A stretch of DNA of 64,000 nucleotides, from the IMG/VR virus record IMGVR_UViG_3300020448_000002, positions 1 to 64,000 of that record. The stretch is one strand, 5' to 3'. Under the pieces are notes generated by a model. The model had not been told where the DNA came from. It saw only the letters and a list, made by a program, of their open reading frames with translations, and ran no database searches. The first letter of the stretch is position 1; the number at the start of each line of letters is the position of its first letter. Source of the stretch: a virus. Below, one piece after another: positions 7,818 to 39,418 of the stretch. The translations under genes and the position numbers were made by a program.

Positions 7818-7823
7818 ATCCGT

Positions 7824-12223: not shown

Positions 12224-12246
12224 ATAATATAGTACAGGAGTTAGCT

Positions 12247-12552: not shown

Positions 12553-12566
12553 ATAGTATTTTTGTA

Positions 12567-13019: not shown

Positions 13020-13023
13020 TTCA

Positions 13024-13085
13024 ACTTTTAATTCCCAAAATACCGCAAAAAAAATTCGTGGTATTTTTTCGCGTGTAAGGTTTTT
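13024..13085 (+). repeat. 62-base dispersed repeat, copy B
   Basis: Ungapped match to copy A (412-473), 54 of 62 bases identical. Here AATACC (13039-13044) can pair with GGTATT (13060-13065), followed by a T-run, which resembles a weak terminator after CpeT. Copy A cannot form this stem. Confidence 0.7.
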
Positions 13086-13178
13086 GTATTAAATATTACA
13101 CAAATCCAAAGAAAATCTAAAGAACCTCGCGTTTGTGTTGATTTCAATATAAAATAGTAGAAGATATTCAAACATAAT

Positions 13179-13331
13179 ATGAGTGGTGACAAAGCACATT
13201 ACGAACAACCAATAGTTTTTTATTCAGAATACATGACTGAAACAAAAAGAGTATTACTTCAGTTACATGAGGAAGATGAGGAATTACTAGTAGAGAAACC
13301 TTGGAGAAATGGCAGTCCACTAAGGGAATAA
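13179..13331 (+). CDS. Small acidic hypothetical protein, 50 aa
   Basis: ATG 13179 to TAA 13329-13331. The product starts MSGDKAHYEQPIVFYSEYMT and continues with a Glu/Asp-rich part (LHEEDEELLVEKPW). A separate gene just ahead of gp5, function unknown. The preceding 147 bases hold the repeat and AT-rich sequence without a clear promoter. Confidence 0.6.
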   Translation: MSGDKAHYEQPIVFYSEYMTETKRVLLQLHEEDEELLVEKPWRNGSPLRE

Positions 13332-13334
13332 ATA
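13327..13334 (+). promoter_or_regulatory. Late promoter AATAAATA (gp5)
   Basis: T4-type late word overlapping the stop of the 50-residue gene, 19 bases before the gp5 ATG. Confidence 0.6.
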
Positions 13335-13353
13335 ACTAAAAAACTGCTTAAAA

Positions 13354-23400: not shown

Positions 23401-24456
23401 GTTGCACCAATCAACGTTGAGTTTAGACGACACTCAATCCTTAGATCAGGTAACCATACGTTTGAATACCTCGGTTTCGGTCCAGGTAACTACTCCACAG
23501 CATTCCCTCAGACACAGGTCGAGACTCTATCACAAAACCAAGTTAGATTCTCTCAGTCAATTAAGGAAGAAGGAGGAGTCAGTTTCTACTCTGGTCTTAA
23601 CTCCAACGGTGACCTATTCATCGGTAACCAGGTTATCAACCCAGTTACAGGTCAAATCACCAACGAAGATATTGCTCAGTTGAATGTTATTGGTGAAGAA
23701 AACACAACTATTGAAACGTTCTCTGAATTGGTGTTAACTGATAAACTAACAGTTATTGGTGGTGCATCAAACCAGTTAGAATCTATCTTTGCAGGTCCTG
23801 TTACATTCCAGAAACAGACAACATTCCAAGACAACTTGTCTTCAAGAAAAATTTCATATTATAACCAAGATGGTACTGTTATTAAACAGACATTACTTGC
23901 ACCAGAAAATGCAGCAGGAAATGCACCTGATTTATCATCTATTACAAACTACAATACACCAGGTGACGGTGACTTAGTTTATAATATCAACTGGAATCCT
24001 GGTAAATCTCTTGGTTGGATCTACTTTAATCAAGGATGGAAAGAGTTTGGTCTTACAAATACACAAGATATTAATATAGAAGAATATAGTGGTAATACAG
24101 TTATTGGTTTAGGAACTGCACCTAATCAATATTATAGAGTCAAAGCACTTGGTAACATATTGATTGACGGTGATTTAGTTGTTACTGGTAATGGTGGTGT
24201 TGGTTCTGACAAATATATTACTAGAACATATACAGGTGATGGTATTACATTAACATTCGCACTGTCAGTTTACACACCAGGTCCTAACGGTCCTATTCAG
24301 CACAGTAATAGTTCTGTTCTGGTATATCTAAATGGTGTAGCACAAATTGGTGGTACTAATTATACCGTTGATAGTAATGGTGCTAACGTTGTATTTGGTT
24401 CGGGAGATGCACCTTTAGCAACTGATACAGTTCACATTGTTGAATTACCTATCTAA
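20479..24456 (+). CDS. Large virion/tail-fibre protein with pectate-lyase-like N-terminus, 1325 aa
   Basis: The N-terminus shows the pattern of phage beta-helix fibres: GRIIYVNPDDFDASDAIDNR, RPFKSLQRAFLEVARFSY, NDEFDAFSIMLYPAEYVIDN and GGIIVPRGCSVVGTDLRRTKI. A right-handed beta-helix is likely for residues ~15-500 (TGFKSMVVAQFTGLSLQKDD, DMSITNSNSNFGNTALRA). The C-terminal part has fibre motifs (NVIGEENTTIETFSELVL-like trimer strands) and ends in a compact beta domain (SVLVYLNGVAQIGGTNYTVD). Probably a tail fibre or baseplate-decorating protein that contacts host polysaccharide. Enzyme activity is not shown. Confidence 0.68.
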   Translation: MSLTRLKNIITSRTGRIIYVNPDDFDASDAIDNRGNSALRPFKSLQRAFLEVARFSYRVGLSNDEFDAFSIMLYPAEYVIDNRPGEVLYTNVAPIDENSNLDLTSPNNVLYKFNSTEGGIIVPRGCSVVGTDLRRTKIIPKYIPYPTIYAAKGINTEDQIPPRSAIFKVTGGTYFWQFSFFDGAEEGVYFKPDSTETLAPKFSHHRLTCFEFADGLNTLSSLISGGTVPNADYSAVPNILERTDLDIYYQKVSKAFATIPDTSGDPSADQIQARVEENRIVGPISDEYRVLQITRNGNTATAVTVDEFDNPRNHGFSVGVNINVSGVTGSTGPQSEVDASLYNGSFTVTSASGNVFTYQMSSEPTGNAVGTNIGVKTEIDTVDSASPYAFNLSLRSVWGMNGMHANGAKATGFKSMVVAQFTGLSLQKDDRAFVRYNSSTGNYDVATAGDGAHLDGYAEYRKGWGHRHIVASDDAFVQAVSVFAVGYFGHFTCERGADMSITNSNSNFGNTALRAAGFKKKSFSKDKSGALTHIIPPKSLNVISTTATGSNGGNTITLANDGSVNGVIEGMLVSGTGIGAEATVGAVNTNTRVITLTVVNTADLANQNVIFGEETSVNWVNIDIPRTKAINSSLAGQGGTPGTRLYLYGYVVEQSAPTTRVQGYTIGARQDGTGASAVADKINCLLVASGASEASVHYASISPYGPSVSGVSAGDPGSPIQYDANTYTINGVAGQVGGWYLSVSSVNNTIYTTLSVNTTYNTVNFTPTTFLKRIPDPRNLADRTYRVRYVIDKDKTNPLPRDPISGYVMQPLNSDTTSYSLDKCFYLYDINVVQEFERGTKDGIYYLTLLCASIAPSTSNFNDRFFSQNVNEVYPTFDRDNPLADPEAAVSIADNVTIGLVNATDGANPPNMDPQRSITKECTEFLLTDTGWTQPGTTPNYDSVNKRLSNIELTARAGDEETRKINIRENNDGTVAPINVEFRRHSILRSGNHTFEYLGFGPGNYSTAFPQTQVETLSQNQVRFSQSIKEEGGVSFYSGLNSNGDLFIGNQVINPVTGQITNEDIAQLNVIGEENTTIETFSELVLTDKLTVIGGASNQLESIFAGPVTFQKQTTFQDNLSSRKISYYNQDGTVIKQTLLAPENAAGNAPDLSSITNYNTPGDGDLVYNINWNPGKSLGWIYFNQGWKEFGLTNTQDINIEEYSGNTVIGLGTAPNQYYRVKALGNILIDGDLVVTGNGGVGSDKYITRTYTGDGITLTFALSVYTPGPNGPIQHSNSSVLVYLNGVAQIGGTNYTVDSNGANVVFGSGDAPLATDTVHIVELPI

Positions 24457-24483: not shown

Positions 24484-24918
24484 ATGGCACTCACAAGAAT
24501 TAGTGGAAACCAAATAGCAGACACAACTGAAGCAGTTATTACAACGCTCAGTTTTTTGAATACTAACAGTGTTTTCCGACTACCAACAGGAACTGCAGCT
24601 CAAAGACCATCTGGTGTGTCTTTGGGAACTATGCGTTTTAATACTACTGCTGATAGTGCAGAAGTATATGCCAATGACGATGGATCTGGTAATCCAGGTT
24701 GGATCGAAGTTGGAGCTGGTGGTGCTGTTGTGGGTGATAAAGGACAGATCAGATGTAACAATGATACTATTGAAGAAAATATTGATCTAGATCCATCAAT
24801 CGGTAATGAATTCAAAATTGGATATATGGCGGGTGACGTTACTGTTGGTAATGGTTATACACTAACTGTTTCTAGTGGAGCGACCCTATATATGATAGGT
24901 TCTGACCCCTATAGTTAA
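24484..24918 (+). CDS. Short tail-fibre protein, 144 aa
   Basis: MALTRISGNQIADTTEAVIT is a fibre anchoring start. RLPTGTAAQRPSGVSLGTMR and FNTTADSAEVYANDDGSG, then WIEV, form the common fibre unit (LP.GT..QRP....G..R.NT....E.Y). The C-terminus ends in a beta strand series (VTVGNGYTLTVSSGATLYMI). Resembles chaperone-less trimeric fibre tips. It precedes two adhesin-like genes. Confidence 0.65.
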   Translation: MALTRISGNQIADTTEAVITTLSFLNTNSVFRLPTGTAAQRPSGVSLGTMRFNTTADSAEVYANDDGSGNPGWIEVGAGGAVVGDKGQIRCNNDTIEENIDLDPSIGNEFKIGYMAGDVTVGNGYTLTVSSGATLYMIGSDPYS

Positions 24919-24945: not shown

Positions 24946-25749
24946 ATGAGTACACTAAGAGTCGCTGCTATTAAAGACCTGACAGGAAATACTGGGTTTG
25001 TTTTGTCCTCTTCTACTGTGACGACTAACAACACTTTAGTTGTACCAGGAACTTTACAAATTAATGGATCCATAACTGGATCTACAAATAGTATACTTCC
25101 ATCACACTCAGGGCAAAATGGTAAGATGTTATATACCAATGGGACAAGTCCTTATTGGGATAATCCACCCTCTGCAGATAACATCTCAAGTATGACTGTA
25201 TTTACATCATCAGGAACTTGGAATAGACCTTCAGACGTTAAATATATCAAAGTTCAAGTCATCGGTGGCGGTGGAGCAGGTGGTGGACATGGAGAAGGTG
25301 GAGGAGCAGGTGGATACTCAGAAGAAGTTATAAACGTAGAAAGTATAAGTTCAGTATATTGCACAATATCAGGAGAATCTAACGGAACATATTACAGAGG
25401 TGGAGCAGGAAACGGTGGATCATCTTCATTCGGATCTTACTTATCAGCATCAGGTGGATATGGAGCAAATAGAAACCAACAGCATAATGGTGGTTTAGGA
25501 GGAGTAGGTTCTGGAGGAAACTTAAACATCTATGGTGGAGGAGGAGACTCTCATCATGGACGTGCATCAGTTGGTGGAGCAGGATTCTGGGGTGGAGCAG
25601 TAGCAGGTGGACACCCTCAAGGTGGAAACTTTAGTCATAATCATCAATCTCACTCATCACCTGGCTCAGGTGGTAGTGGAGGTTATTTCAACTCACATAG
25701 AGGGTCTAACGGTAGACCTGGTATGATCGTTATTACACACTTTAAATAA
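24946..25749 (+). CDS. Glycine-rich tail-tip adhesin candidate A, 267 aa
   Basis: N-terminal fibre part (STLRVAAIKDLTGNTGFVLS, LPSHSGQNGKMLYTNG) followed by TVFTSSGTWNRPSDVKYIKV and VQVIGGGGAGGGHGEGGGAG, the start of a glycine-rich domain that occurs in phage receptor-binding proteins. The C-terminal ~150 residues are Gly/Ser/His/Asn-rich (GGHPQGGNFSHNHQSH) and end GRPGMIVITHFK. Polyglycine-II sandwich folds of the T-even gp38 adhesin have this composition. Likely binds host surface receptors. Paralogous to the next gene, which starts directly after its stop. Confidence 0.68.
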   Translation: MSTLRVAAIKDLTGNTGFVLSSSTVTTNNTLVVPGTLQINGSITGSTNSILPSHSGQNGKMLYTNGTSPYWDNPPSADNISSMTVFTSSGTWNRPSDVKYIKVQVIGGGGAGGGHGEGGGAGGYSEEVINVESISSVYCTISGESNGTYYRGGAGNGGSSSFGSYLSASGGYGANRNQQHNGGLGGVGSGGNLNIYGGGGDSHHGRASVGGAGFWGGAVAGGHPQGGNFSHNHQSHSSPGSGGSGGYFNSHRGSNGRPGMIVITHFK

Positions 25750-26583
25750 ATGAGTAGTCTAAAAGTCCTTAACATATATGATGTATCTGGTACATGTGGA
25801 CTTATCAGAAATGGTTCTAACTGGGAAATCAATACAACCAATGGTGGTGATGAAAAACTAACAGTTAACACTCTACAGATAGATGGTACTATTACTGGTA
25901 GCCAAGCTGCAAGATTTTTACCTTCTCAATCTGGTAACAATGGTAAGGTTTTAAAATCTAATGGTTCAACAGGTTACTGGGAAACATTTCTAGGACCTAC
26001 AGGAAACCTAACTAGTATGCAAGTGTTCACCTCTGGTGGCACATGGTCTAGACCATCAGATGTTCGTTATGTTCACGTCCAAGTAGTTGGAGGTGGAGGA
26101 GGTGGCGGTGGTCACGGTGAAGGTGGTGGAGCAGGTGGATACTCTGAAGAGATTATTTACATTGAAAATGTGTCAACAGTATCAGTAAGTGTATCAGGAG
26201 AATCGAATGGAACATATTATCGAGGAGGTGCTGGAAATGGGGGATCCTCATCGTTCGGATCTTATCTCTCAGCTTCTGGTGGTTATGGTGCCAACAGAAA
26301 TCATCAACACAATGGCGGTCTTGGAGGCGTTGGGTCAGGAGGAAACCTAAACATATATGGTGGTGGTGGAGACCAACATCATGATGGTGGATCATCAAAT
26401 GCAAACTCTGGAAGAAGTTTCTGGGGTGGTTGTGTAGCAGGTGGTCATCCTCAAGGTGGTAACTTCTCACATAATCATCAAAGTCATTCACCACCAGGTT
26501 CGGGTGGAAATGGCGGTTATTTCAACGGTCACAGGGGTTCAAATGGAAGACCTGGAATGGTTGTAATAACTCATTATAAATAA
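25750..26583 (+). CDS. Glycine-rich tail-tip adhesin candidate B, 277 aa
   Basis: Paralogue of the preceding gene with no gap between them. The same order holds: fibre N-terminus (MSSLKVLNIYDVSGTCGLIR), QVFTSGGTWSRPSDVRYVHV, a G-run, GGHPQGGNFSHNHQSHSPPG and a GRPGMVVITHYK end. 36 central residues are identical to copy A, while the N-terminal ~90 residues and the segment after GGGGD differ (B has DGGSSNANSGRSFWGG). Variable loops within a constant scaffold would suit receptor-binding diversity. Confidence 0.68.
   Translation: MSSLKVLNIYDVSGTCGLIRNGSNWEINTTNGGDEKLTVNTLQIDGTITGSQAARFLPSQSGNNGKVLKSNGSTGYWETFLGPTGNLTSMQVFTSGGTWSRPSDVRYVHVQVVGGGGGGGGHGEGGGAGGYSEEIIYIENVSTVSVSVSGESNGTYYRGGAGNGGSSSFGSYLSASGGYGANRNHQHNGGLGGVGSGGNLNIYGGGGDQHHDGGSSNANSGRSFWGGCVAGGHPQGGNFSHNHQSHSPPGSGGNGGYFNGHRGSNGRPGMVVITHYK
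26575..26582 (+). promoter_or_regulatory. Late promoter TATAAATA
   Basis: Exact late word at the end of adhesin B, 24 bases before the next ATG. Confidence 0.65.
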
Positions 26584-26606
26584 ATCACGAGGTTCTATTA
26601 AGACAG

Positions 26607-27107
26607 ATGAAAAAAGTATTAGTATCTATTGATGGTAAAGCAATGCAAATTGTAGATCCAGGTCAAGAATTTGAGATATATAATGGTCCAGATGCTAAGT
26701 TCGTCTGGGTTGATGTAGACAATGATAATATTACTCTAGACTGGACTCTAGAGTATTCACCTGCAGCAGGTAAAATGGTGTGGGTTGAGAGAGATGGATC
26801 TTATACAGATCCAGGTATGGCTCGCCAAGTTGCGTATGGTGAAGTGGGCGAACAATTAGACATGCTCTACAGAGACATCAATTCGGGTAAAAGTTTAGAT
26901 GCAAGTGATGCAGAGTGGTATCAGCATATTAAAAATATTAAGAGTACGTATACAAAACCTGTTGCTAAGTCATCACCTATGACACCAACAGAATTAAAAT
27001 CATATTCAGAGACAGAAGAACCTGCAGCAGATAAGTTTCCTAAGATGTCATATCCAGAATTACCTGCATGGAAAAGATATGATGGGTGGACAGATCCTAA
27101 CGTTTAA
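26607..27107 (+). CDS. Tail-fibre-associated hypothetical protein, 166 aa
   Basis: N-terminal beta domain (KKVLVSIDGKAMQIVDPGQE, FVWVDVDNDNITLDWTLEYS) then ARQVAYGEVGEQLDMLYRDI with NSGKSLDASDAEWYQHIKNI, a segment seen in many phage tail fibre assembly or tip proteins (Y...G.QLD.LY.DI..G......W...I). The Pro-rich C-terminus ends KRYDGWTDPNV. Probably part of the fibre module; the last codons contain the -35 box of the next operon's promoter. Confidence 0.55.
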   Translation: MKKVLVSIDGKAMQIVDPGQEFEIYNGPDAKFVWVDVDNDNITLDWTLEYSPAAGKMVWVERDGSYTDPGMARQVAYGEVGEQLDMLYRDINSGKSLDASDAEWYQHIKNIKSTYTKPVAKSSPMTPTELKSYSETEEPAADKFPKMSYPELPAWKRYDGWTDPNV

Positions 27108-27145: not shown

Positions 27146-28810
27146 ATGAAAGTTGAAGAACCAGATCATTTTATAGAATTTGAAAACTTTGATCCATATA
27201 AAGGTAAGATCGAAAGTGTAGTAATTGTAGGTGGTGGGTCATCAGGATGGATGACTGCTGCTGCACTTGCTAAGTTATGTCCTCATTTAGAGGTTGCCTT
27301 AGTTGAATCAAAAGATATAAAAACTATTGGTGTAGGAGAGTCTACTTTAGGACATTTCAACCAATACTTAGAATTATTAGATTTGAAAGATGAGGATTGG
27401 ATGCCTCATGCAGATGCAACATATAAGAACGGTATACAATTTACAAATTTCAGAGAAGGAAAGGAAGAAGTATTCCAATATCCTTTCTATACTGATTACG
27501 ATTTAACTTATGCACCCCACGGTCTTAATACTTGGGCTCATTTAGCAAATATGTTTCCAGAAGATTTTCCACCAGAATCTTTTGCTGAATTTTATTGTGC
27601 TAATACATTCTTGTGTAATGAGAATAAGCAAACAAGAAATAGAGACGGTGTAATAAGACAGTTTGATTTTAGAAGACATACTGCATATCATTTAGATGCA
27701 ACAAAGTTTGGATTATATCTCAGAGATAATATTTGCTTACCAAATGGTGTTCAGCATATTATAGGAGAAATTACTGGTTTCCAGACAATGTATGAGAAAC
27801 CAAATGACCAAACCATTAGTTATCTTATAATGGATGGTGTCAATGCAATACAGGCAGATCTCTATATTGATTGTACAGGATTTAAGTCAAAACTTTTAGG
27901 AGGTTTCCAAGGCATACCTTTCATACCTGCTGAGAATAAACTTGCAAATGATAAAGCGTGGGCAGCTCGCATTCCTTATCTTGAAGAAACAAGAGAAAAA
28001 GAAATGCATAATGTAACTGATTGTTGGGCTATGCCTAACGGTTGGACATGGAATATACCACTATGGAATAGAATTGGTAAAGGATATGTTTACTCAAGTA
28101 GATTTGTTCGTAAGGAGCAAGCAAGAAAAGAATTTATAGAACATCTCAGACATACAGTAGGAAAGAAAAGAGCAGACGAAGCAAAATTATTTCACATTGA
28201 TATAGAGCATGGTAGGAGACAAAGAGCATGGGTTAACAATGTAGTTGGTATAGGTTTATCATATGGATTTGTAGAACCATTAGAATCTACTGGTTTATTA
28301 ACAACTCATGAAAATATACTAAGGTTAGTAACTACTCTTAATCAAAGGAATGGTTATGTAACTAGAACAGAGAAGGAAGGATTTAACTGGATATGTAATT
28401 ATACTCTTGATAACTTTATTGATTTTGTTGCAATGCACTATGCATTCTCTATGAGAACTGATACTCCATATTGGAGGTGGTGTACACAACAGAACTTCTA
28501 TAATCCAGAGTCAGTAACACAAAATGTTCCAGTTCATCAATCTATTGAACAGTTTGTTTCATCTACTCTAGGAGAAGGATGGCATCCTAATATGAATGGC
28601 ATACCATTTATTGCAGCAGGACATGGAATAAAATCATCATCATATCTTAGAAGAACTGATTATCTATTAGGAGAATTGATGTCAGATAAAGATCATCTAG
28701 TAGATAAACGTAAGAAATATATGCAATGGAAAGATTACATGGAAAAATACATTGCACAGTTACCTACACATTATGAATTCTTGAGAGACGAAATATATGG
28801 GACTCCTTAA
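27146..28810 (+). CDS. Flavin-dependent tryptophan halogenase family protein
   Basis: 554 residues, close to PrnA/RebH (about 530-540). The FAD-binding VVIVGGGSSGWMTAAALAK lies at 25-43, GVGEST at 62-67, the catalytic lysine region YKNGIQF at 93-99 (K94 in the position of PrnA K79), GWTWNIPLWNR (the GW.W.IP halogenase fingerprint) at about 298, and YGFVEPLESTGLL at about 372 with the conserved Glu. All key residues are present. It should use FADH2, O2 and chloride or bromide to halogenate an indole or other aromatic; substrate not predictable. First gene of a coupled 13-gene operon. Confidence 0.88.
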   Translation: MKVEEPDHFIEFENFDPYKGKIESVVIVGGGSSGWMTAAALAKLCPHLEVALVESKDIKTIGVGESTLGHFNQYLELLDLKDEDWMPHADATYKNGIQFTNFREGKEEVFQYPFYTDYDLTYAPHGLNTWAHLANMFPEDFPPESFAEFYCANTFLCNENKQTRNRDGVIRQFDFRRHTAYHLDATKFGLYLRDNICLPNGVQHIIGEITGFQTMYEKPNDQTISYLIMDGVNAIQADLYIDCTGFKSKLLGGFQGIPFIPAENKLANDKAWAARIPYLEETREKEMHNVTDCWAMPNGWTWNIPLWNRIGKGYVYSSRFVRKEQARKEFIEHLRHTVGKKRADEAKLFHIDIEHGRRQRAWVNNVVGIGLSYGFVEPLESTGLLTTHENILRLVTTLNQRNGYVTRTEKEGFNWICNYTLDNFIDFVAMHYAFSMRTDTPYWRWCTQQNFYNPESVTQNVPVHQSIEQFVSSTLGEGWHPNMNGIPFIAAGHGIKSSSYLRRTDYLLGELMSDKDHLVDKRKKYMQWKDYMEKYIAQLPTHYEFLRDEIYGTP

Positions 28811-29582
28811 TAGAAAACCTTGGATCAGGTTTTACTCATTAGAACCTGCTGTTACTGATCTCTATCCTATTAAACCTGCTAGTAATCAAAAACGTGGTTG
28901 GGTTCAAGAAGAGAGAAAGAAATCAAAATGCCCTATGGCAGGTATATTAACAACTGCTAATTGTCCTGGCATTAAAAATCTTATGTCGTCAGGTTTTATT
29001 GTAACAGCACCTGCTGATTTTAAAGTAAAAACAAATGGTGATGGTATATCATTTGAATGGGAAACACCTTACTTGTTTAAGATGGGTGGTAATAAGCAAG
29101 GATATATTGGTAAGCATGATAATACTCAAGTGGATCCAATTTTAGATGACCCAAGCAAATCATTAAGATCAGTAGTAAAGGTAGAAACTCCTTGGAGAGT
29201 TAAAGCTAGTAATGATATTGTACTGTTACAGTTACCAGTAAATTATAATAATGAAAAAAGATTTACGGCAGCAACGGGATTGTTAGACCCAAAATACGGG
29301 CATGTTATACACGCTCAATTATTCTGGCATGTATTAGAAGGTGAAACTCTTGTCAAGGCAGGTACACCATTAATACATTATATTCCTATGCATAGAAAAT
29401 ACTTGCAGAATAGTCATTTTAATACTATAATAGACTCTGCAGGTGCTGTTGAATGGCAGATGGAAGAATCTTTCGAGTATGCTAATCAATCACAATTCCT
29501 TGCAGAAGACTCTGTTCAGAACCGTCTAAATAGGGTGATGACAGTTTTCAACAAGTATCGTAACAAAGGTTTTAAATTATGA
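28797..29582 (+). CDS. Unknown protein in halogenase operon, possibly DUF6065-like, 261 aa
   Basis: Overlaps the halogenase end by 14 bases. Contains WIRFYSLEPAVTDLYPIKPA, a CPMAGILTTANCPGIKNLMS segment, SGFIVTAPADFKVKTNGDGI and, later, HVIHAQLFWHVLEGETLVKA with GTPLIHYIPMHRKY. The pattern (a target region ending in W, then P.D, then GTPL....P) recalls DUF6065 proteins that often neighbour 2OG enzymes or halogenases; I offer that only as a resemblance. Two histidine-containing strands could form a beta-sandwich. Confidence 0.55.
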   Translation: MGLLNRKPWIRFYSLEPAVTDLYPIKPASNQKRGWVQEERKKSKCPMAGILTTANCPGIKNLMSSGFIVTAPADFKVKTNGDGISFEWETPYLFKMGGNKQGYIGKHDNTQVDPILDDPSKSLRSVVKVETPWRVKASNDIVLLQLPVNYNNEKRFTAATGLLDPKYGHVIHAQLFWHVLEGETLVKAGTPLIHYIPMHRKYLQNSHFNTIIDSAGAVEWQMEESFEYANQSQFLAEDSVQNRLNRVMTVFNKYRNKGFKL

Positions 29583-29971
29583 ATGAAAGACCAGAACAGT
29601 ATGACAATGTTCAGAATCCAGAAGGTCCTATAAACCCAAGGAACAATGAACCTTATGCAGATCATAAACCAGATGATTCACCAACTCATTTGGCAGAATT
29701 TAAAATGGAAGGTATTGATGATTTAATCAATAACTTTAATGGTCAGTACAATAAAGCACATGAAGCATGTGAAAAATTAGAAGAGGAATTTAAAGATACT
29801 AAATTAAATCCTTATGGTGTAACACAAATTGATTTTAGTAAGAGACAAGAACTAAAAGATCAAATGCTAAGATTAGAAGGTGCTATTAATGGATTAAAAC
29901 TAGCACAAGACACATTCATACTAGATCAAGTAAAAGTCAGACATCCTGATAGAAAGTATGATGCATTATGA
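29579..29971 (+). CDS. Hypothetical helical protein, 130 aa
   Basis: ATGA overlap with both neighbours. Charged and disordered N-terminus (MNERPEQYDNVQNPEGPINP), then two predicted helices (NKAHEACEKLEEEFKD; RQELKDQMLRLEGAINGLKL) consistent with a coiled-coil hairpin. Possibly a small adaptor for the operon's enzymes. No family recognised. Confidence 0.6.
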   Translation: MNERPEQYDNVQNPEGPINPRNNEPYADHKPDDSPTHLAEFKMEGIDDLINNFNGQYNKAHEACEKLEEEFKDTKLNPYGVTQIDFSKRQELKDQMLRLEGAINGLKLAQDTFILDQVKVRHPDRKYDAL

Positions 29972-30633
29972 TAATCGCTGAAGATTATTCTGGTGAAGGT
30001 TTACATCTATGGCATCCTTATGTTTTTAAGTATGAGTTTGACTTTAGTGAAATATTACCAAAGCTTAGACCAACATACGAAGCAGCATTAAATCACTGGG
30101 CAGCACAAGGAGATCAGACTGAAGTAGAAGCTATACCTAAATCTACCACATCAAGAGTTGGTAGATATGAATATACGTTAGAACCTCATAATCAAGAATG
30201 TATGAAACCATTTCATGATTGGTTGGGTCCTCGTATTAATTGGGTGTGGGAACAATTTGGTTACTTAGGAGCAGAGAGTGAAGTTAGTCAGTCATGGTTC
30301 AATAGACATACTAAGGGAGGACAAACTAAAGAGCATACTCATAATTGTATTGAGTTAGTTGTAGCATCGTACTTACAGAATGATGGAGAAGGTCAAGGTA
30401 ATATAGAAATTAAAGATCCATTAGAATATCATAAGACAGGTTATCCATATGATGCAGAGAAAGAAGTATGGAAAGAAATTAAAGCTCCAACTAATACAGT
30501 TTTAATATTTCCTGGTTGGGTTAATCACAGAAGTCAAGAGAATAAAATAGGTGGTGAAAGGATGGTGATGACATATAATATTAATGCTCGTCTCTTTAAA
30601 TGTGATGTATATGAAAAAAGATTCATTTTATAG
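29968..30633 (+). CDS. 2OG-Fe(II) oxygenase family (no. 3, operon member 1)
   Basis: 221 residues. QTKEHTHNCIELVVASYLQ gives the first His pair, KAPTNTVLIFPGWVNHRSQE the distal His after a FPGW turn, and GGERMVMTYNINARLF the Arg and last strand. This is the H.H...FP.W..H....R pattern of the putative 2OG oxygenase family. ATGA coupling to the previous gene. Its C-terminus overlaps the next ORF. Confidence 0.75.
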   Translation: MIIAEDYSGEGLHLWHPYVFKYEFDFSEILPKLRPTYEAALNHWAAQGDQTEVEAIPKSTTSRVGRYEYTLEPHNQECMKPFHDWLGPRINWVWEQFGYLGAESEVSQSWFNRHTKGGQTKEHTHNCIELVVASYLQNDGEGQGNIEIKDPLEYHKTGYPYDAEKEVWKEIKAPTNTVLIFPGWVNHRSQENKIGGERMVMTYNINARLFKCDVYEKRFIL

Positions 30634-31402
30634 AACTTTACTTATGCATCATGAGTTCTCTGACATGATAAAGGTCAAAGAACCAAGAGAGTGGGAAGTT
30701 AAGTATGTTAAATTAACTGATGATATAGGATATTATATTGCAGATCAACCATTTAAAGATGGTGGATTTGATTTGTATATGGATTTGGCAGCAACATTTC
30801 CTATCATGACTGATACAAATAGAGGTGATTGCAGAGATCCAAATCCCTTTGCAACTATTCACCTACCACATTGGTGTTGTGTAGAAGTGTTTAGATTGAT
30901 GAGAGGATATTTTAGAACATGGTTTGATAAAAAACCAATAGAACAGTTGATGTTAACAGAGTGGGGTAACTTATATTTTAAAGAAGAATCATTCCCTTGG
31001 AATTATTTTAGACTACCTCATGTAGATGGTCCTCAAGGATTAGTATCTAATCTATGGTTTACAACTAACCCTGACTCAGGGACAAAATTATATAAGTATC
31101 ATGGTGATATTATTAAAGGTGATGATAATAAATTATATTATGATTTCATGGTCAATGAAGATCACAAATTATTTAAAGAAGTAAAACATATGTGTACTCA
31201 TATGGAAAGATTAGATGGGTGGAAAAATTTATCAGCAGATGAAGAGAGACACTATGGTTTTGAATGTGTAGGAATAGCACCTTGTAAAAAAGGAACAATG
31301 ACATTATATGATACTGAAGTATCACATACACCTTACATAGAAGATACATGTGACTTTAGATGGTCACACGCTTATCGTGTATCTGAAAGGTATGGGTGGT
31401 AA
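30611..31402 (+). CDS. 2OG-Fe(II) oxygenase-like protein (no. 4, operon member 2)
   Basis: Ends at 31402. I choose ATG 30611 (MKKDSFYRTLLMHHEFSDMI); 30584, 30605 and 30644 are alternatives in the same frame. About 263 residues, larger than its neighbours. NYFRLPHVDGPQGLVSNLWF supplies H.D, KGTMTLYDTEVSHTPYIED the distal His, and FRWSHAYRVSERYGW the Arg. The N-terminal half contains GYYIADQPFKDGGFDLYMDL and is not typical of the smaller family members. Confidence 0.68.
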   Translation: MKKDSFYRTLLMHHEFSDMIKVKEPREWEVKYVKLTDDIGYYIADQPFKDGGFDLYMDLAATFPIMTDTNRGDCRDPNPFATIHLPHWCCVEVFRLMRGYFRTWFDKKPIEQLMLTEWGNLYFKEESFPWNYFRLPHVDGPQGLVSNLWFTTNPDSGTKLYKYHGDIIKGDDNKLYYDFMVNEDHKLFKEVKHMCTHMERLDGWKNLSADEERHYGFECVGIAPCKKGTMTLYDTEVSHTPYIEDTCDFRWSHAYRVSERYGW

Positions 31403-31983
31403 TGGAAGTTAAATTTAAAAAAGATTATTGTTCTGATTTACTTTCATGGAAAGAGTTTGAGACTCTAGTGAATATAAGACCTTTGATGACATCAAGGAGA
31501 GTTAATTTTTTTAATAAAAAACCATATAGATGGGATTGTCCTAGTTGGGCATTGGATGTGAACGCTATACCACCAACAATAGTAAAGGAAGCCTTGTTTG
31601 AATCAGTATGTTATTTTAGGGATATGTCAAGAGCAACCGAGAATATAAATCAGTTTGCAAAAACTCTTGAAGAAGAATATAAATCAGTTGTTGATGCTCA
31701 TGTATATGTTTGTCTTAATTTAAAACCAGATCATCCATTTGGTAAGCATCATGATGTTGATGATAATGTAATTGTTCAATGTGAAGGTGAAACTAATTTT
31801 AAAGTATGGGATACAAACGATAAACAAGTGTTAGATGTTAATCTAACGTCAGGTGATACAATTTGGATACCAAAATTATATCCTCACCTAGCAACATCCC
31901 ATACTAAAAGATTATCTGTTAGTTTTCCTGTAATGGAAGGTAATGACTTATGTAAAGAAGATAGAGAGTGGATTAAATTATGA
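31402..31983 (+). CDS. Cupin/2OG-oxygenase-like protein (no. 5, operon member 3)
   Basis: 193 residues from ATG 31402 (TAATG overlap); a GTG at 31396 would add two residues. HPFGKHHDVDDNVIVQCEGE with TNFKVWDTNDKQVLDVNLTS, GDTIWIPKLYPHLATSHTKR and LSVSFPVMEG look like a JmjC/cupin-type barrel: H.D, G...I.....PH, R. It is more like roxA/JmjC hydroxylases, which act on proteins, than the P4H type. Metal and 2OG residues look complete. Confidence 0.65.
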   Translation: MEVKFKKDYCSDLLSWKEFETLVNIRPLMTSRRVNFFNKKPYRWDCPSWALDVNAIPPTIVKEALFESVCYFRDMSRATENINQFAKTLEEEYKSVVDAHVYVCLNLKPDHPFGKHHDVDDNVIVQCEGETNFKVWDTNDKQVLDVNLTSGDTIWIPKLYPHLATSHTKRLSVSFPVMEGNDLCKEDREWIKL

Positions 31984-32558
31984 AGAATTTTACATTTTAT
32001 AAACAAGAAGATAATCTCAATGATTTTATTTTTGAGTCAACAATAACAGATAAGAATGTATGTAATTATCTCATAGATCAATATCATATGATGGAGCATC
32101 ATGAAGGTAGAGTGACTAACGATCAGGAAAATTATGTCAATACTAATCTCAAGGTGACAGAGCAAAGTTTTGTTGAACCAGATCATGCATCATACCAGAC
32201 AATATATGAGTGTATAGATAAGACAATTAGTGTACTACCATATAGATTAACTATACCTTATGATATAACTTCAACTGAATATTCTATTAGCAGGTATCTA
32301 AAAGGTGAAGGACACTTTGGAACTCATGTTGACACAACATCCAAAATGACTTATAATAGGCTTCTTGCCTTTATATTATATCTTAATGATGTTGAAGAGG
32401 GTGGTGAGACTGAGTTTATGACTCTTAACAGATTAGTAAAACCAGAAACAGGAAAAGTATTATGCTTTCCTTGTAATTTTATGTTTCCTCATAAAGGCAA
32501 TATCCCTTTATCGAATGATAAGTATATTGTCACAGCATTTGTTTATCCAACATGGTAA
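31980..32558 (+). CDS. Prolyl-4-hydroxylase-type 2OG oxygenase (no. 6, operon member 4)
   Basis: 192 residues, a clear P4Hc domain: GHFGTHVDTTSKMTYNRLLA (H.D and following strand), FILYLNDVEEGGETEF (the YLN....GGET.F fingerprint), GKVLCFPCNFMFPHKGN (distal His) and a C-terminal KYIVTAFVYPTW in which Lys takes the 2OG-binding place. Protein or peptidyl hydroxylation is typical for the type. ATGA-coupled to the previous gene. Confidence 0.85.
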   Translation: MKNFTFYKQEDNLNDFIFESTITDKNVCNYLIDQYHMMEHHEGRVTNDQENYVNTNLKVTEQSFVEPDHASYQTIYECIDKTISVLPYRLTIPYDITSTEYSISRYLKGEGHFGTHVDTTSKMTYNRLLAFILYLNDVEEGGETEFMTLNRLVKPETGKVLCFPCNFMFPHKGNIPLSNDKYIVTAFVYPTW

Positions 32559-33127
32559 ATAACGATTACAACCTATATGAAATAGATCCAATTCATTGTG
32601 GTATAGATCACGATAAATTGATTCAATATGTAGATATGTCAAAGGCTAAGTTTGAACATCTATTTGATGATAAAACACATGATACTGGTTTTTATTATCT
32701 CTACAATTTCTTTAGTATAGCTTCATGTAATAAGGATACATATAACTTATATCTTGCTATTGTAAAATGTATAAGAGATTATTTTGAAGTCCATAATATA
32801 TCAAAAGATAGTGTATGGATGCAAATGTGGATGAACATACATGATAAAGATCAAGTGCTTAAATCACATTCACATGACTTTCCTTATCATGGTTATTTCT
32901 CATTAACACCTCAAAATACTGACACAGTATTTCAAGATAAAAAAGATGGAAAAGAACTGTATAGAATAAAGAATGCACCATACAATGTTTATATTGGACC
33001 TGGTGAAAGACATCATTATGTTGATGTATTAGAAGACTATACAGATAAGAGAATTACATTTGGATTTGATATTCAAACTGATGATTTAGTTACTGGTAAC
33101 TTTAGTTTTATACCTATAGCATTATGA
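32552..33127 (+). CDS. 2OG-Fe(II) oxygenase-like protein (no. 7, operon member 5)
   Basis: 191 residues. DQVLKSHSHDFPYHGYFSLT supplies the first His/Asp, NAPYNVYIGPGERHHYVDVL the distal His, and DKRITFGFDIQ the Arg. The core is a shorter double-stranded beta-helix than in the P4H type. Overlaps the previous gene by 7 bases and the next by 4. Confidence 0.7.
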   Translation: MVNNDYNLYEIDPIHCGIDHDKLIQYVDMSKAKFEHLFDDKTHDTGFYYLYNFFSIASCNKDTYNLYLAIVKCIRDYFEVHNISKDSVWMQMWMNIHDKDQVLKSHSHDFPYHGYFSLTPQNTDTVFQDKKDGKELYRIKNAPYNVYIGPGERHHYVDVLEDYTDKRITFGFDIQTDDLVTGNFSFIPIAL

Positions 33128-33705
33128 TTAAATTAGATTTATATTTCCCTACACCAGTATGGTGGACTGATACTGATCTTGATAATGAATATTTGAAAGA
33201 TATAGTATATAATAAAAAATTTGAATTTCCAGAAGGAAGAGAAGTTAGCAACTATGGTGGATGGCAGTCAAATGTATTTCCACCGACTCATGTACCACCA
33301 TTATGTGATGTAGCAGTTCAAATAGCAGATCAAGTTAAAGAAGATATGGGATTAAATCCATATACTGAATTTAATGTAGATAATCTATGGTGTAATGTTA
33401 ATAATCAAGGTAACTCAAATCAAATACATATACATCATGGTTCATTCTTATCTGGTGTATATTATGTTCAAGCTAATGAGAATAGTGGTGATCTTATATT
33501 TTACAAAGATTTTAATAAGCAGTATATGAAAACTACTGATACAGAAATAGTAAAACATACACCATTAACAGGGGATGTAGTAAGATATAAACCTAAAACT
33601 GGTAGGATGTTTGTATTTCCTGGTTGGTTACCACACTCAGTAGATAAGTGTATAGATAATACAGATAGAGTATCTATTGCCTTTAACATATTAATTAAAA
33701 AATGA
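33124..33705 (+). CDS. 2OG-Fe(II) oxygenase family (no. 8, operon member 6)
   Basis: 193 residues with the full putative-2OG family pattern. LYFPTPVWWTD is the usual N-terminal start; NQIHIHHGSFLSGVYYVQAN gives H.H..S.LSGVYY; GDLIFYKDF, GRMFVFPGWLPHSVDKCIDN and DRVSIAFNI give the remaining His and Arg. Closely similar in layout to the copy at 51967. Confidence 0.85.
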   Translation: MIKLDLYFPTPVWWTDTDLDNEYLKDIVYNKKFEFPEGREVSNYGGWQSNVFPPTHVPPLCDVAVQIADQVKEDMGLNPYTEFNVDNLWCNVNNQGNSNQIHIHHGSFLSGVYYVQANENSGDLIFYKDFNKQYMKTTDTEIVKHTPLTGDVVRYKPKTGRMFVFPGWLPHSVDKCIDNTDRVSIAFNILIKK

Positions 33706-34220
33706 TTCAAACTATTGAAAATATTATTCCAGAGTCACAACAAGATTTCCTTTTAGGTAAGGTAACTGACTTAAGTTTTGACTGGCATTTTATGCCTGAT
33801 GTAACTTATGTTGAAGAAGGAGAAGGAATAAACACACCAGGTTTTGCTAACCTATTAGTCAATGGACAGAAGAGATCAGGTCAGGAAGATTTATTCATGT
33901 CGCCACTTATTGAGTACTTACATAGATCAAATCAAAAGTTAGGTGCATTGCATAGAATGAGATTAGGAATGACTTTGAACAATAGCAATGAAGAACATAA
34001 CAATAAACATATTGATTTTAACTTTCCACATCAAGTAGGATTATATTATATGAATGATAGTGATGGTGATACACTTGTTTGGAATGATGATATTGTCACC
34101 AGAGTATCACCTAAGAAAGGAACATTTTTTGTATTTGATGGAGCATTTCCTCATGCTAGTTCATGCCCTAAAGAATATTCAACAAGAATTGTTTTAACAT
34201 ATAATTTTACGACAAGATGA
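33702..34220 (+). CDS. 2OG-Fe(II) oxygenase, P4H-like (no. 9, operon member 7)
   Basis: 172 residues. EEHNNKHIDFNFPHQVGLYY holds H.D, DGDTLVWNDD the following strand, and VSPKKGTFFVFDGAFPHASS the distal His, with STRIVLTYNF giving the Arg. It shares VSPKKG...FDG..FHAS with member 9 of the operon (34816), so the two are likely paralogues. Confidence 0.82.
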   Translation: MIQTIENIIPESQQDFLLGKVTDLSFDWHFMPDVTYVEEGEGINTPGFANLLVNGQKRSGQEDLFMSPLIEYLHRSNQKLGALHRMRLGMTLNNSNEEHNNKHIDFNFPHQVGLYYMNDSDGDTLVWNDDIVTRVSPKKGTFFVFDGAFPHASSCPKEYSTRIVLTYNFTTR

Positions 34221-34819
34221 GACTACCATTAACAGTAGTAGATAACTTTTTTGAGACACCAACACTTGTAAGAGACTTTGCACTACAGCAAGAGTTTTTT
34301 AAAGGTGACAGAGGAAATTGGCCAGGTATTCGCACTAAGTTTATAGAAGACTTAGATGTAGATTTCTTTAATAAATTACATGATAAACTATTAAATCATA
34401 TACCTAGAAATTATAAAGGATTTCAACATTTAGAAGCAACATTTCAATTAATAGATGAGACATATAAAAGAGGATGGGTTCATAATGATGACCCTAAGTG
34501 GAATGTAGCAGGGATTATATATTTAAACAATGATAAACCTAAACAAGATTGTGGAACTACATTTTATGATGATAGAGATACATCAAATGATGGAGATCAC
34601 AGTAAAGAATATTGTGATGATGTAAATGATAATATAGGACAGAATGAAGACGTAAGAGATAAAGTTAATTCAAGATGGGTACCTAGTATGCTTGCAGAAA
34701 ATAGATGGAATCGTTGTGTTATATCTGACTCAACTAGATGGCATAGTGCAGGTAGATTCTTTGGACATAATAAAGAGACATCTCGATTGACTCTAGTATT
34801 CTTTGGGAGGGTAATATGA
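34217..34819 (+). CDS. DUF6445-like 2OG oxygenase fold protein (no. 10, operon member 8)
   Basis: 200 residues. LPLTVVDNFFETPTLVRDFA, then RGNWPGIRTKFIEDLD, GWVHNDDPKWNVAGIIYLNN (H.D), DCGTTFYDD, and RCVISDSTRWHSAGRFFGHN with SRLTLVFFGRV. The W.G.R, H.D, YLN, GT.F and WH...GRFFG order is that of the DUF6445 family, which is a P4H relative. Coupled by ATGA on both sides. Confidence 0.75.
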   Translation: MRLPLTVVDNFFETPTLVRDFALQQEFFKGDRGNWPGIRTKFIEDLDVDFFNKLHDKLLNHIPRNYKGFQHLEATFQLIDETYKRGWVHNDDPKWNVAGIIYLNNDKPKQDCGTTFYDDRDTSNDGDHSKEYCDDVNDNIGQNEDVRDKVNSRWVPSMLAENRWNRCVISDSTRWHSAGRFFGHNKETSRLTLVFFGRVI

Positions 34820-35400
34820 GTGATATTATAGTTGTAGATGATTTCATATCAAAAGATTATGCAGATCACATAGAACAAATAGTTAATGAAAAAGATTTCC
34901 CACTACATTTTAGAAAAGGAATTGTAACCAACGAGGATGAACATGAAGGTAATGTAGATGGCTTCATTCATATGTTATATGAAGTCCAAAAACCTGTATC
35001 ACCTAGATTTCCGTTAATATATCCTATGGTATTAAGTATTACTGAAGCAACTGGTATTAAATGGAATGTATTAGAAAGATTGAGATTTAATTTCATGTTA
35101 GGTAATAGGACATCTAAACTATTACATCATGCACCTCATACTGATAACTATACACCACACTGGTCAGCAATATATTATGTTCATGATTGTGATGGTGATA
35201 CATTCTTTTTCGATCAAAAACTTACTAAATTTACAGAAGAAGAATCATATCAAATAACATACGATAATAACTGGACAATTAAAAAACGTGTATCACCTAA
35301 GAAAGGGAGACTGGTAATGTTTGATGGTGTAAGATTTCATGCTAGTTCATTCACTAAAACTAAACCATTTAGATGTGTACTTAATATGAATTTCTCATGA
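34816..35400 (+). CDS. 2OG-Fe(II) oxygenase, P4H-like (no. 11, operon member 9)
   Basis: 194 residues. KLLHHAPHTDNYTPHWSAIY (H.D), CDGDTFFFDQ, KKRVSPKKGRLVMFDGVRFH with HASS (distal His), and FRCVLNMNF (Arg). Its last 60 residues resemble the product of 33702. ATGA overlaps join it to the genes before and after. Confidence 0.82.
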   Translation: MSDIIVVDDFISKDYADHIEQIVNEKDFPLHFRKGIVTNEDEHEGNVDGFIHMLYEVQKPVSPRFPLIYPMVLSITEATGIKWNVLERLRFNFMLGNRTSKLLHHAPHTDNYTPHWSAIYYVHDCDGDTFFFDQKLTKFTEEESYQITYDNNWTIKKRVSPKKGRLVMFDGVRFHASSFTKTKPFRCVLNMNFS

Positions 35401-35930
35401 TAAACGTAGTTAGACAAGCAATTAGTAAAGATACTTGTGAAGTAATATCTAATAGTATTGAATTCATGAGAGTGATGATGGGCAACCCACCTGACCCTAC
35501 TATCAATAATGCTTTTGGATACTATTCCCCAGTATTCTTAGAAGGCTTAATGTTGTATATGCAACCAGAGATAGAGAAAAAAGTCAGTAAGAAATTACAT
35601 CCAACATACTCTTATGGTAGGATATATGGACATGGATCAGTATTAGAGAAACATACAGATAGACCAAGTGGTGAATATGGTGTCACCTGTTGTTTAGAAA
35701 AACAATGTAATTATCCTATATTTTTTGAAATGGAAGGTGGACACGTCATAGATATAGAATTGGATGTAGGAGATATATGCATTTACAAAGGCATAGACTA
35801 TCCTCATTGGAGAGAACCCTATCAAGGTAATAGACACATTCAAGTATTTCTCATGTATGTTGATAGTAAAGGATTGTACAAGGACTGGAAGTGGGATAAA
35901 AGAGATAGCTTATGCCAACCACCAATCTGA
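35397..35930 (+). CDS. 2OG-Fe(II) oxygenase, P4H-like (no. 12, last of the operon)
   Basis: 177 residues. YSYGRIYGHGSVLEKHTDRP gives a Y.R.Y..GS.L..H.D start, EYGVTCCLE and IFFEMEGGHVIDIELDVGDI the middle strands, GIDYPHWREPYQGNRHIQVF the distal His and Arg. LDVGD..IYKG...PH is a common form in bacterial P4H relatives. It ends the operon; a new promoter starts 11 bases later. Confidence 0.82.
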   Translation: MINVVRQAISKDTCEVISNSIEFMRVMMGNPPDPTINNAFGYYSPVFLEGLMLYMQPEIEKKVSKKLHPTYSYGRIYGHGSVLEKHTDRPSGEYGVTCCLEKQCNYPIFFEMEGGHVIDIELDVGDICIYKGIDYPHWREPYQGNRHIQVFLMYVDSKGLYKDWKWDKRDSLCQPPI

Positions 35931-37367: not shown

Positions 37368-37537
37368 TTGAAACACTAATTGCCTCAACTATTATTACTG
37401 TTAGTTGTGCTGACATCAATGCTCTTATTGATAGAGCAAAAACATATCCTGACATAACTGAAGAACATAGAGCAGAAGTCATAGACATCTATCGTGATTT
37501 TGGTAAGAAACAGGGATTAGATTGTGATGCAGAATGA
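37364..37537 (+). CDS. Small secreted or lipid-anchored protein candidate, 57 aa
   Basis: ATGA-coupled on both sides. MIETLIASTIITVSCADINA has a short hydrophobic N-terminus ending in a Cys (weak lipobox TVSC), followed by DRAKTYPDITEEHRAEVIDI and a C-terminal CDAE. Could be exported to the periplasm; a basic n-region is lacking, so the signal is uncertain. Confidence 0.5.
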   Translation: MIETLIASTIITVSCADINALIDRAKTYPDITEEHRAEVIDIYRDFGKKQGLDCDAE

Positions 37538-38154
37538 TAAAACACTTTAATCCAAAGTGGTATTTCAAGGACACACTCACAGATATAGATCAGCAACAGA
37601 TAGATAATTGGTTTGCTGACTTATATAAAGATGCAGAAGGATTTGGAATACCAAAAGACTGGCAGAAATTATGTAGAGTAACATCTACAGATAGAAAGAG
37701 TGATGGTAATCCAATATGGGAAGACTATTTAAAATTACTTAAACCTTATCAGGATAAGTTTTTAAGTGAGATAGAAACATATTGGGATGCAGAATTAATA
37801 TGTGATAATGTATGGGTCAACAGATATACACAGGGAGATTTTCAAGAGGTTCATAACCATTGTCATCCCGACTATAATATTGCTATGGTATATTTTCATA
37901 AGTGTAATGGGTCACAGTTTCATTTCTTTGATTCATCATGGACAGAATATAGATCAAGCGGATTAGATTATATTATGAATGTAGTAGGAGAAGAGATAGT
38001 ACAACTAGAGATAGAACAGGGAGATATAATTATGTTCCCAACTAACTATCCTCATTTTGTATCGCCCAATATGAACGAGGAACTAAGGATTACGTTTGCA
38101 GGTAACTTTAAACTACAAAGAAAACATATGACAATACGAGAACTGACCACATAA
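37534..38154 (+). CDS. 2OG-Fe(II) oxygenase family (no. 13)
   Basis: 206 residues. NRYTQGDFQEVHNHCHPDYN supplies the His cluster, IAMVYFHKCNGSQFHFFDSS the strands, QGDIIMFPTNYPHFVSPNMN the distal His and ELRITFAGNFKL the Arg. Same family as nos. 2, 3, 8 and 14. It is isolated among tiny early-type genes and so probably expressed at another time than the operon copies. Confidence 0.78.
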   Translation: MIKHFNPKWYFKDTLTDIDQQQIDNWFADLYKDAEGFGIPKDWQKLCRVTSTDRKSDGNPIWEDYLKLLKPYQDKFLSEIETYWDAELICDNVWVNRYTQGDFQEVHNHCHPDYNIAMVYFHKCNGSQFHFFDSSWTEYRSSGLDYIMNVVGEEIVQLEIEQGDIIMFPTNYPHFVSPNMNEELRITFAGNFKLQRKHMTIRELTT

Positions 38155-38205: not shown

Positions 38206-38649
38206 ATGACTCAAATCGAACTCAACAAAACATACACTTATGAGTGTGATGCTACATTTGGCACACTATCACAAGAGAAAGTTAATAAGTTATTTACTGA
38301 TGGTAGAAGAGCATCTGGATTTCTTGAGATTCAATTAGAAGAGTGGTTTCCTAATCTTACATTTGTAGATGGTAAAGGTTATGACCACGTTGATACAGAT
38401 GGACTCAAGTATGATGCAAAATGTTTTACCAAAGGTGGTTCAAAGTTTTGTTCATCAAAGTATTTGGGTGTAGGTAGATCATTAAATGTTGAAGAGCATG
38501 AAGCACACGCAGAAAATATTATCTACATTTTTACAGATGTGGTAGAATTTCCAAAGGTTCAAGTTAAATTTGTAAAAGGTTCTGACTTAATTCAGACTTA
38601 TAAAAAAGGTTCAATTCCATTCTCACATAGAAATGCTTTATTTGGATGA
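38206..38649 (+). CDS. Possible PD-(D/E)XK nuclease paired with a methyltransferase, 147 aa
   Basis: GFLEIQLEEWFPNLTFVDGK (helix with E41, E45), then YDHVDTDGLKYDAKCFTKGG with D60, D63 and D70-A-K72, then SKFCSSKYLGVGRS and IIYIFTDVVEFPKVQVKFVK. An acidic residue, a D and a D-x-K in this order are the skeleton of PD-(D/E)XK endonucleases. It overlaps the downstream DNA methyltransferase by 17 bases, the layout of a type II restriction-modification pair. A nuclease role is an inference; no specific restriction enzyme is recognised. Confidence 0.5.
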   Translation: MTQIELNKTYTYECDATFGTLSQEKVNKLFTDGRRASGFLEIQLEEWFPNLTFVDGKGYDHVDTDGLKYDAKCFTKGGSKFCSSKYLGVGRSLNVEEHEAHAENIIYIFTDVVEFPKVQVKFVKGSDLIQTYKKGSIPFSHRNALFG

Positions 38650-39418
38650 TTGTATTACAGGGATGCAGAAACTAGATGAGAAATCAGTTGATGCAGTTGT
38701 AACATCCCCACCATACAACTTAAATATTAAATACAGTAAATACAACGATAAGAAACCAGTAGATCAATATCTATCATGGTTAGGAGACGTATTTGCTGAA
38801 TGTAAACGTGTACTTAAAGATGACGGTCATCTATTTGTTAACATGGGATATTCTAATGTTAATCCTACAATAGGTATAGATGTATGTTGTAAGTTAAGAG
38901 AGAATTATATACTACAGAATAATATTGCATGGATTAAAAGTGTTCATACTGATAAGACACATGGACATTTTAAACCTATCAATAGTAAGAGATTCTTATG
39001 CCCAACATGGGAACATCTATTTCATTTTACAAAAGATGGTAAGATAGAGATCGATAGATTATCAGTTGGAGTGAAGTATGAATACTATGAAGCAAACATT
39101 CGTGGTAATAATACTAAGGACAATAAACCTAACCTAAGAGACAAAGGTAACTCATGGTTTATACCATACGAAACTAGACAAAGTAAACTAGAGAAAGGTA
39201 ACCACCCCGCTATTTTTCCAGTTAAACTTGTAGAGGATTGTATTAAACTTACTGGTAAAAGTAGTGGTATTGTTTTAGACCCATTCATGGGAACTGGAAC
39301 TACAGGAGTAGCAGCAGTTAACTTAGGATGGGATTATATTGGATATGATATAGATGAAGACTATGTTAAGTATTCTAAACAAAGATTAGAAGGGGGATTG
39401 AAATCATTATTAAAATGA
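38633..39418 (+). CDS. Beta-class DNA methyltransferase (N4-cytosine or N6-adenine)
   Basis: 261 residues. Motif IV VDAVVTSPPYNLN (TSPPY at 24-28) comes before motif I LDPFMGTGTTG (216-225) and WDYIGYDIDEDYV, the order of beta-class amino-methyltransferases. HVFHFTKDG and GNHPAIFPVKLVEDCI are further family blocks. It transfers a methyl group from S-adenosylmethionine to DNA. Target specificity cannot be read. Overlaps the nuclease-like gene upstream and a 29-codon gene downstream (ATGA). Confidence 0.88.
   Translation: MLYLDDCITGMQKLDEKSVDAVVTSPPYNLNIKYSKYNDKKPVDQYLSWLGDVFAECKRVLKDDGHLFVNMGYSNVNPTIGIDVCCKLRENYILQNNIAWIKSVHTDKTHGHFKPINSKRFLCPTWEHLFHFTKDGKIEIDRLSVGVKYEYYEANIRGNNTKDNKPNLRDKGNSWFIPYETRQSKLEKGNHPAIFPVKLVEDCIKLTGKSSGIVLDPFMGTGTTGVAAVNLGWDYIGYDIDEDYVKYSKQRLEGGLKSLLK

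Follow-up and report, generated by a model that had tools for sequence, protein, structure and literature searches.

Why marine cyanophages carry halogenases together with many 2-oxoglutarate (2OG) oxygenases has been a question since the first genomes, and it is raised again by the viral DNA analyzed here, positions 1–64,000 of IMG/VR record IMGVR_UViG_3300020448_000002 (64,000 nucleotides; hereafter the window, to which coordinates refer). In its list of open reading frames (ORFs), 13 on the plus strand make up one coupled series at 27146–35930: a VirX1-type flavin-dependent halogenase (G1), a DUF6065-like protein (G2), a small protein (G3) and ten 2OG/JmjC-type oxygenases with intact metal triads (G4–G13). 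A preliminary description of the same DNA had reported 13 coupled genes with mostly four-base overlaps, headed by a complete FAD halogenase, and both points hold: the overlap is four bases at 8 of the 12 junctions and 7, 7, 14 and 50 bases at the others. Its count of nine 2OG members has to be raised to ten (29968–35930), each with a Pfam or PHROG match and a triad. The functional unit probably starts upstream of 27146, with the tail-tip genes and the gene G0 at 24946–27107. We consider it probable, if well short of certain, that the tail-tip adhesin is the substrate of the halogenase and, in loci that have them, of the oxygenases.

The evidence that carries this reading is the linkage of the halogenase to one type of tail tip. 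Two glycine-rich tip adhesins are encoded on the plus strand, Tf1 at 24946–25749 (Pfam Gly_rich_2, E 1e-6, and a fold match) and Tf2 at 25750–26583 (Gly_rich_2, E 1e-9). Among 26 metagenomic viral loci fetched by tip alignment alone, a VirX1-type halogenase lies nearby in 20/20 strong-tip loci with downstream sequence; the contig of one further locus (L073; L-numbers label the fetched loci compared with the window) ends at the tip, and four weak-tip loci have neither a halogenase nor a 2OG gene. With an unlinked tip as the query the split is the same, every strong-tip locus with downstream room having a halogenase. After clustering at 90%, 104 of 104 tips bearing the residue signature described below and having enough flank are halogenase-linked, versus 0/3 non-signature tips; since some of the 104 come from loci fetched with the halogenase, the counts from the tip side carry less bias. 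A tblastn search of a phage collection with Tf1 matched 12 records, all of which carry a halogenase. From the halogenase side, in 41 metagenomic viral loci, a tip adjoins in 28, the upstream sequence is too short in nine and none is shown in four. The tip is thus a better predictor of the halogenase than the halogenase is of the tip. Short PrnA-type halogenases occur without Tf1/Tf2-type tips, and S-H25 has a divergent tip and no halogenase; scanning with the S-H25 tip yielded one relative.

Could such pairing be a by-product of genome organization? The cassette lies on the opposite strand relative to the tips in five loci (L046, L076, L077, L079 and L083), so one frozen operon is insufficient to explain it. 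The capsid proteins fall into two lineages that are 33% identical, and the tip–halogenase pair is found in both. Halogenase identity follows that of the tip (rho 0.60), not that of the capsid (rho −0.19; 36 non-independent pairs), and between the window and L132 the capsids are 33%, the halogenases 52% and the tips 68% identical. Tip and halogenase have moved as one module, a pattern that linkage alone could also produce. A recombination hot spot, that is, a cargo slot behind the tail-fibre genes at which tips, halogenase and oxygenases are swapped together without functional coupling, would agree with the variable gene content there and with Sf-CH1a and S-SSM7, which hold other cargo with halogenases at this place. 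Passive hitch-hiking would, however, leave many tips without a halogenase, and no such tip turned up among those with the signature and flank; the pair is also kept in inverted cassettes. We therefore regard a mere slot as quite improbable.

The constancy of the pair is not shared by the oxygenases. In a deduplicated set of 28 loci with long flanks, separate from the 28 tip-adjoining loci above, the number of 2OG genes is 0–1 in six and 6–11 in 22, G2 is found only where there are at least six 2OG genes, and G0 is present in all. Tip, G0 and halogenase thus form the core, with the oxygenase array as an extension. G0 (26607–27107, plus strand; a YorD/phrog_1787 protein by its PHROG match, present in 28/28 halogenase-tip loci tested) is probably a fibre-assembly chaperone, judging from its position and domain pattern and by analogy with gp25 of cyanophage Pam3; as a query against PDB sequences it gave no match. 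The locus had been described as looking like an assembled modification pathway. An assembled cassette is supported, but since the 2OG number is either 0–1 or 6–11 among halogenase-tip loci, a pathway of sequential small-molecule steps is not.

The tips themselves point to candidate substrate residues. Across 129 distinct halogenase-linked tips, the conserved non-glycine positions are a Glu (98%), a second Glu (95%), a Tyr (100%), a Phe (100%) and two His (100% and 99%). Unlinked homologues, a comparison set of about seven kinds, keep the Phe but mostly lose the Glu, the Tyr and both His, with signatures of A-FAR, G-FGG, RVFGW, GNFYS, WGFYT and SVFYL against EYFHH in the linked tips. In Tf1, E117, Y150, H180 and H203 each lie between two glycine-rich runs; the Tf2 residues are E124, Y157, H187 and H210. 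Because linked tips form one sequence group, part of this conservation is shared ancestry. We also considered matching particular 2OG families to particular tip residues, and set this aside as confounded by phylogeny. Some tip genes seem to have changed: in syn9 the second one looks rearranged (L001, 8627–9899, gp39 and the next ORF), with a 392-amino-acid ORF containing an internal repeat and a 64-amino-acid tail fragment, and the S-CREM1 record has a tip copy with in-frame stops at 54737–55291.

Neither single tips nor a tip profile gave a useful result in PDB sequence searches, and the fold search alone placed the tip. The AF2 model of Tf1 (overall pLDDT 84, with values above 90 in most of the glycine-rich domain) has as its best Foldseek match the Pam3 fibre 7ypx (E 1e-7, TM about 0.5), and the known systems that it resembles are the Pam3 fibre gp24 with its chaperone gp25 (7ypx/7yfw) and the S16 gp38 tip. 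In Pam3, as here, glycine-rich loops have a distal end and a chaperone (here the putative one, G0) is encoded beside the fibre; receptor binding in Pam3 is proposed to take place at the loop ends, which are hypervariable (PMC9608196). Tf1 and Tf2 would, by this analogy, bind the host receptor, and sequence together with the Pam3 structure would place the conserved residues at the distal end. The difference is that the distal loop ends of known tips of the Pam3/S16 kind are hypervariable, whereas here four residues between glycine-rich runs are nearly invariant and halogenase-linked. Four possible targets had been named in the preliminary description; the glycine-rich adhesin is the one we favour, on the linkage and on residues conserved only in halogenase-linked tips, and nothing was found in support of a halogenated aromatic, host glycans or a signalling peptide.

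When the array is read bears on what it acts upon. Upstream of the tips, also on the plus strand, are TF, a long tail-fibre structural protein of 1325 amino acids (20479–24456) whose upstream position is conserved across the Tf1-group halogenase loci, and Tf0, a fibre accessory protein (24484–24918; phrog_7459). The late-promoter core of T4-like phages, ATAAATA, stands at 26576–26582 on the plus strand, 24 bases before the start of G0, with further copies at 20452, 24457 and 24918, just before TF, Tf0 and Tf1 respectively. The motif is depleted in the window (13 copies versus 34.7 expected in shuffles), and after the G0 copy no other was found on the plus strand before 42859. Given late cores before TF, Tf0, Tf1 and G0 and the next copy only at 42859, transcription of the array probably occurs late, along with that of the fibre genes. 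A perfect sigma-70-like −35/−10 pair at 32329–32357, inside G7, is probably accidental, as sigma-70 hits over the whole scan are about as frequent as chance predicts (66 found versus 69 expected). Homologues of TF (S-SZBM1_52) and Tf0 (S-SZBM1_51) were detected by mass spectrometry in purified S-SZBM1 virions; in the virion table we found no entry for the tips _48/_49 (PMC9146016).

The strongest alternative is that the enzymes are directed at the host, modifying late in infection a host receptor, glycan or outer-membrane component, for example against superinfection; the linkage to the tip would then follow from the tip's recognition of that same receptor. Strict linkage to one tip type would be explained just as well, and bacterial relatives of the halogenase do adjoin genes for a TonB-dependent receptor (a surface transport protein) and for Cupin_8/JmjC and DUF6445 proteins. 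We nevertheless think it unlikely: late-type promoters common to virion genes fit virion maturation better, and the conserved Tyr, His and Glu of the tip would need a separate explanation. In the bacterial clusters, of which Paraglaciecola L162 is an example (6873–15633: TonB receptor, halogenase, SapC, Cupin_8, halogenase, DUF6445), the halogenase has JmjC-type and DUF6445 genes around it and a surface-protein gene next door, but the partner is a TonB-dependent receptor, not a tail tip. Neither that receptor nor SapC was found among the window neighbours scanned, and a tip or G2 was found in none of 80 bacterial halogenase loci, 11 of which hold a DUF6445 relative by the G11 profile. DUF6445-type genes are also present in the bacterial loci L171, L183, L191, L194, L198, L199, L218 and others. 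A full-text literature search for halogenase, SapC and TonB-dependent receptor together returned no paper, and we know of no established substrate for these clusters either. The grouping of a halogenase and JmjC and DUF6445 proteins with a surface protein may be a more widespread arrangement.

The published readings are of another kind. In the literature the halogenase stands for tryptophan or antibiotic chemistry and the 2OG genes for metabolic or DNA-repair genes, with PrnA-like antibiotic protection and 2OG and NtcA signalling as proposed roles (PMC3037559, PMC9964418, PMC9602691). An auxiliary metabolic role directed at small molecules (tryptophan, indoles, the 2OG pool, nitrogen signalling) thus matches the view in those papers, and it suits the halogenation of many free aromatics by VirX1 in vitro. 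It does not, however, predict that tip and halogenase stay paired whichever way the cassette faces and across two deep phage lineages, or that ten different oxygenases follow the tail-fibre genes, and we hold it to be rather improbable.

G1 (27146–28810, plus strand) is an enzyme of the VirX1 kind, identified by Pfam, PHROG and PDB matches and conserved motifs. It is complete (Pfam Trp_halogenase, E 5e-96), its nearest PDB entry is VirX1 of cyanophage Syn10 (6qgm, E 2e-218), and it is about 60% identical to the syn9/Syn10 gene, with the same gene position and motifs. The GxGxxG motif is GGGSSG at 29–34; in the family alignment W300, W302, I304 and P305 of the WxWxIP motif are invariant, as are the catalytic glutamate (E377/E380) and the catalytic lysine K94, which aligns with the TYKN segment of VirX1 around K79. 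VirX1 has been studied as a biocatalyst on free aromatics, with halogenation activity that prefers iodide; we know of no natural substrate for it, and in reviews of VirX1 we found neither such a substrate nor a link to tail tips. Its active site is open and takes large phenols (PMC8407142).

If the tip is the substrate, the operon would be a cassette that is expressed late and matures the receptor-binding tip of the phage itself, with Tf1 and Tf2 as glycine-rich tail-tip adhesins and G0 probably as their assembly chaperone. G1 would halogenate an aromatic tip residue, most likely the invariant Tyr (Tf1 Y150/Tf2 Y157) or an invariant His between the glycine-rich runs, iodine or bromine being the most plausible halogen, as with VirX1 in vitro. 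The 2OG/JmjC-type proteins may hydroxylate or otherwise oxidize other tip side chains (His, Asn, Asp, Pro, Gly), with G2 as a putative helper, and the benefit could be changed receptor binding or adhesin stability. We lean slightly towards the more general proposal that T4-like phages put halogens and hydroxyls on their own receptor-binding tips via a dedicated linked cassette, giving non-standard residues at an otherwise conserved patch.

Several observations weigh against modification of the tip. Of the four halogenase loci that show no tip, one does so clearly (L047, with 10 kb upstream) and three with 2–4 kb upstream (L041, L048 and L050). The halogenases of S-B64 and S-H35 lie about 87 kb from a single divergent tip without the signature, and that of Sf-CH1a occupies the tail-fibre slot without a recognizable tip of the Tf1/Tf2 family. 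The 2OG genes are dispensable, with none or one in 6/28 loci. The linked tips are one sequence group and the unlinked comparison set is small, and the four conserved residues could have another role, as ligands of a metal or in direct contact with the receptor. Lastly, the tip as substrate, the chemistry and the benefit are drawn by inference.

Even so, such a close association with a single type of tail tip points to a candidate substrate and candidate residues. Rather than altering host metabolism, as has been guessed until now, the enzymes may put the chemical finish on the part of the virion that holds on to the host. If this is true, recognition of the host by a virus can rest on amino acids that are made by enzymes and cannot be seen in the sequence, and structure-based prediction of phage receptor binding would miss them.

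The ten oxygenases, all on the plus strand, are diverse. G4 (29968–30633; H123xH125...H187, R198) and G9 (33124–33705; H102xH104...H171, R182) are 2OG-FeII_Oxy_5 proteins, G6 (31396–31983; H118xD120...H164) is a JmjC/cupin oxygenase (Pfam JmjC_2, E 5e-8), G7 (31980–32558; H116xD118...H171, K181) is of the prolyl 4-hydroxylase (P4H) type, 2OG-FeII_Oxy_3, and G11 (34217–34819; H89xD91...H176, R190) is DUF6445 oxygenase-like (E 4e-11); these five pass the Pfam cut-off. G10 (33702–34220; H103xD105...H151, R162) and G12 (34816–35400; H108xD110...H175, R186), both phrog_274-type 2OG oxygenases, have weaker Pfam or 2OG-related PHROG matches. As the remaining three match only PHROGs with another or no name, their membership rests on the triad: G5 (30584–31402; phrog_1644/DUF6445-related oxygenase-like, H146xD148...H248), G8 (32552–33127; phrog_2696 HxH-type oxygenase-like, H106xH108...H155, R167) and G13 (35397–35930; P4H-like, H86xD88...H137). 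An HxD/H...H triad, usually with a 2OG-anchoring Arg or Lys, is thus present in all ten window copies, and no member lacks it at the sequence level. The triad columns are mostly at least 90% conserved in family alignments, with H89 of G11 and D118 of G7 below 90%. The PHROG names "DNA endonuclease V" (G10), "ferrochelatase" (G13) and "minor coat protein" for such oxygenases are ruled out by the 2OG-type triads. The at least four subtypes described earlier are confirmed, as HxH (2OG-FeII_Oxy_5), HxD P4H-like, JmjC/cupin and DUF6445, and the diverse subtypes, intact triads and order kept across phages agree with the view that this is no simple recent duplication. Close relatives differ in gene content: five loci (L017–L020 and L049) have an extra 472-amino-acid halogenase and no G6; the window and L016 have G6 without that halogenase.

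G2 and G3 had been presented as two unknown proteins, which stands for G3 only. G2 (28797–29582, plus strand; phrog_7084) is a putative remote DUF6065 relative, tied to that family through distant members: the DUF6065 profile matches 2 of 19 family members (best E 0.004) and gave no match to the window copy. Its model (pLDDT 85) has a predicted dUTPase-like fold (E 8e-4, TMt 0.66), but motif III was not seen by eye in the alignment, so we do not class it as a dUTPase. G3 (29579–29971, plus strand) is a small charged protein whose position is conserved in many cassettes and for which Pfam and PHROG searches gave no confident family.

A DNA-level search of the phage collection with the window found no close relative. 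Both syn9/Syn10 and S-CREM1 have almost the same array order, and shorter versions occur in Sf-FP1, S-RIM44, P-TIM40, S-WAM1, S-SZBM1 and P-RSM6; no named pathway for this order was found in the papers searched. S-CREM1 (10 genes) and S-SCSM1 (24 genes) have many diverse 2OG genes, as does the window, but these were published as host-reprogramming metabolic genes without a tail-tip association, and in the open-access literature we found no paper tying halogenase or 2OG genes to tail fibres. The sequence of the array is already known, and the only published label for it is "auxiliary metabolic genes"; it is the tip partner that looks new. In loci of the pelagiphage HTVC008M type (L145, L148 and L014), a different glycine-rich tip type without the signature has four 2OG genes beside it on the opposite strand and a shorter halogenase a few kilobases on, possibly a parallel tip modification.

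Downstream of the array, outside the coupled series, the window has an eleventh 2OG gene, G14 (37534–38154, plus strand; 2OG-FeII_Oxy_5 by Pfam, triad H107xH109...H174). After a small unknown gene there follows, at 38633–39418, a gene that is DNA methyltransferase-like by sequence; a methyltransferase likewise lies downstream in syn9 and P-TIM40.

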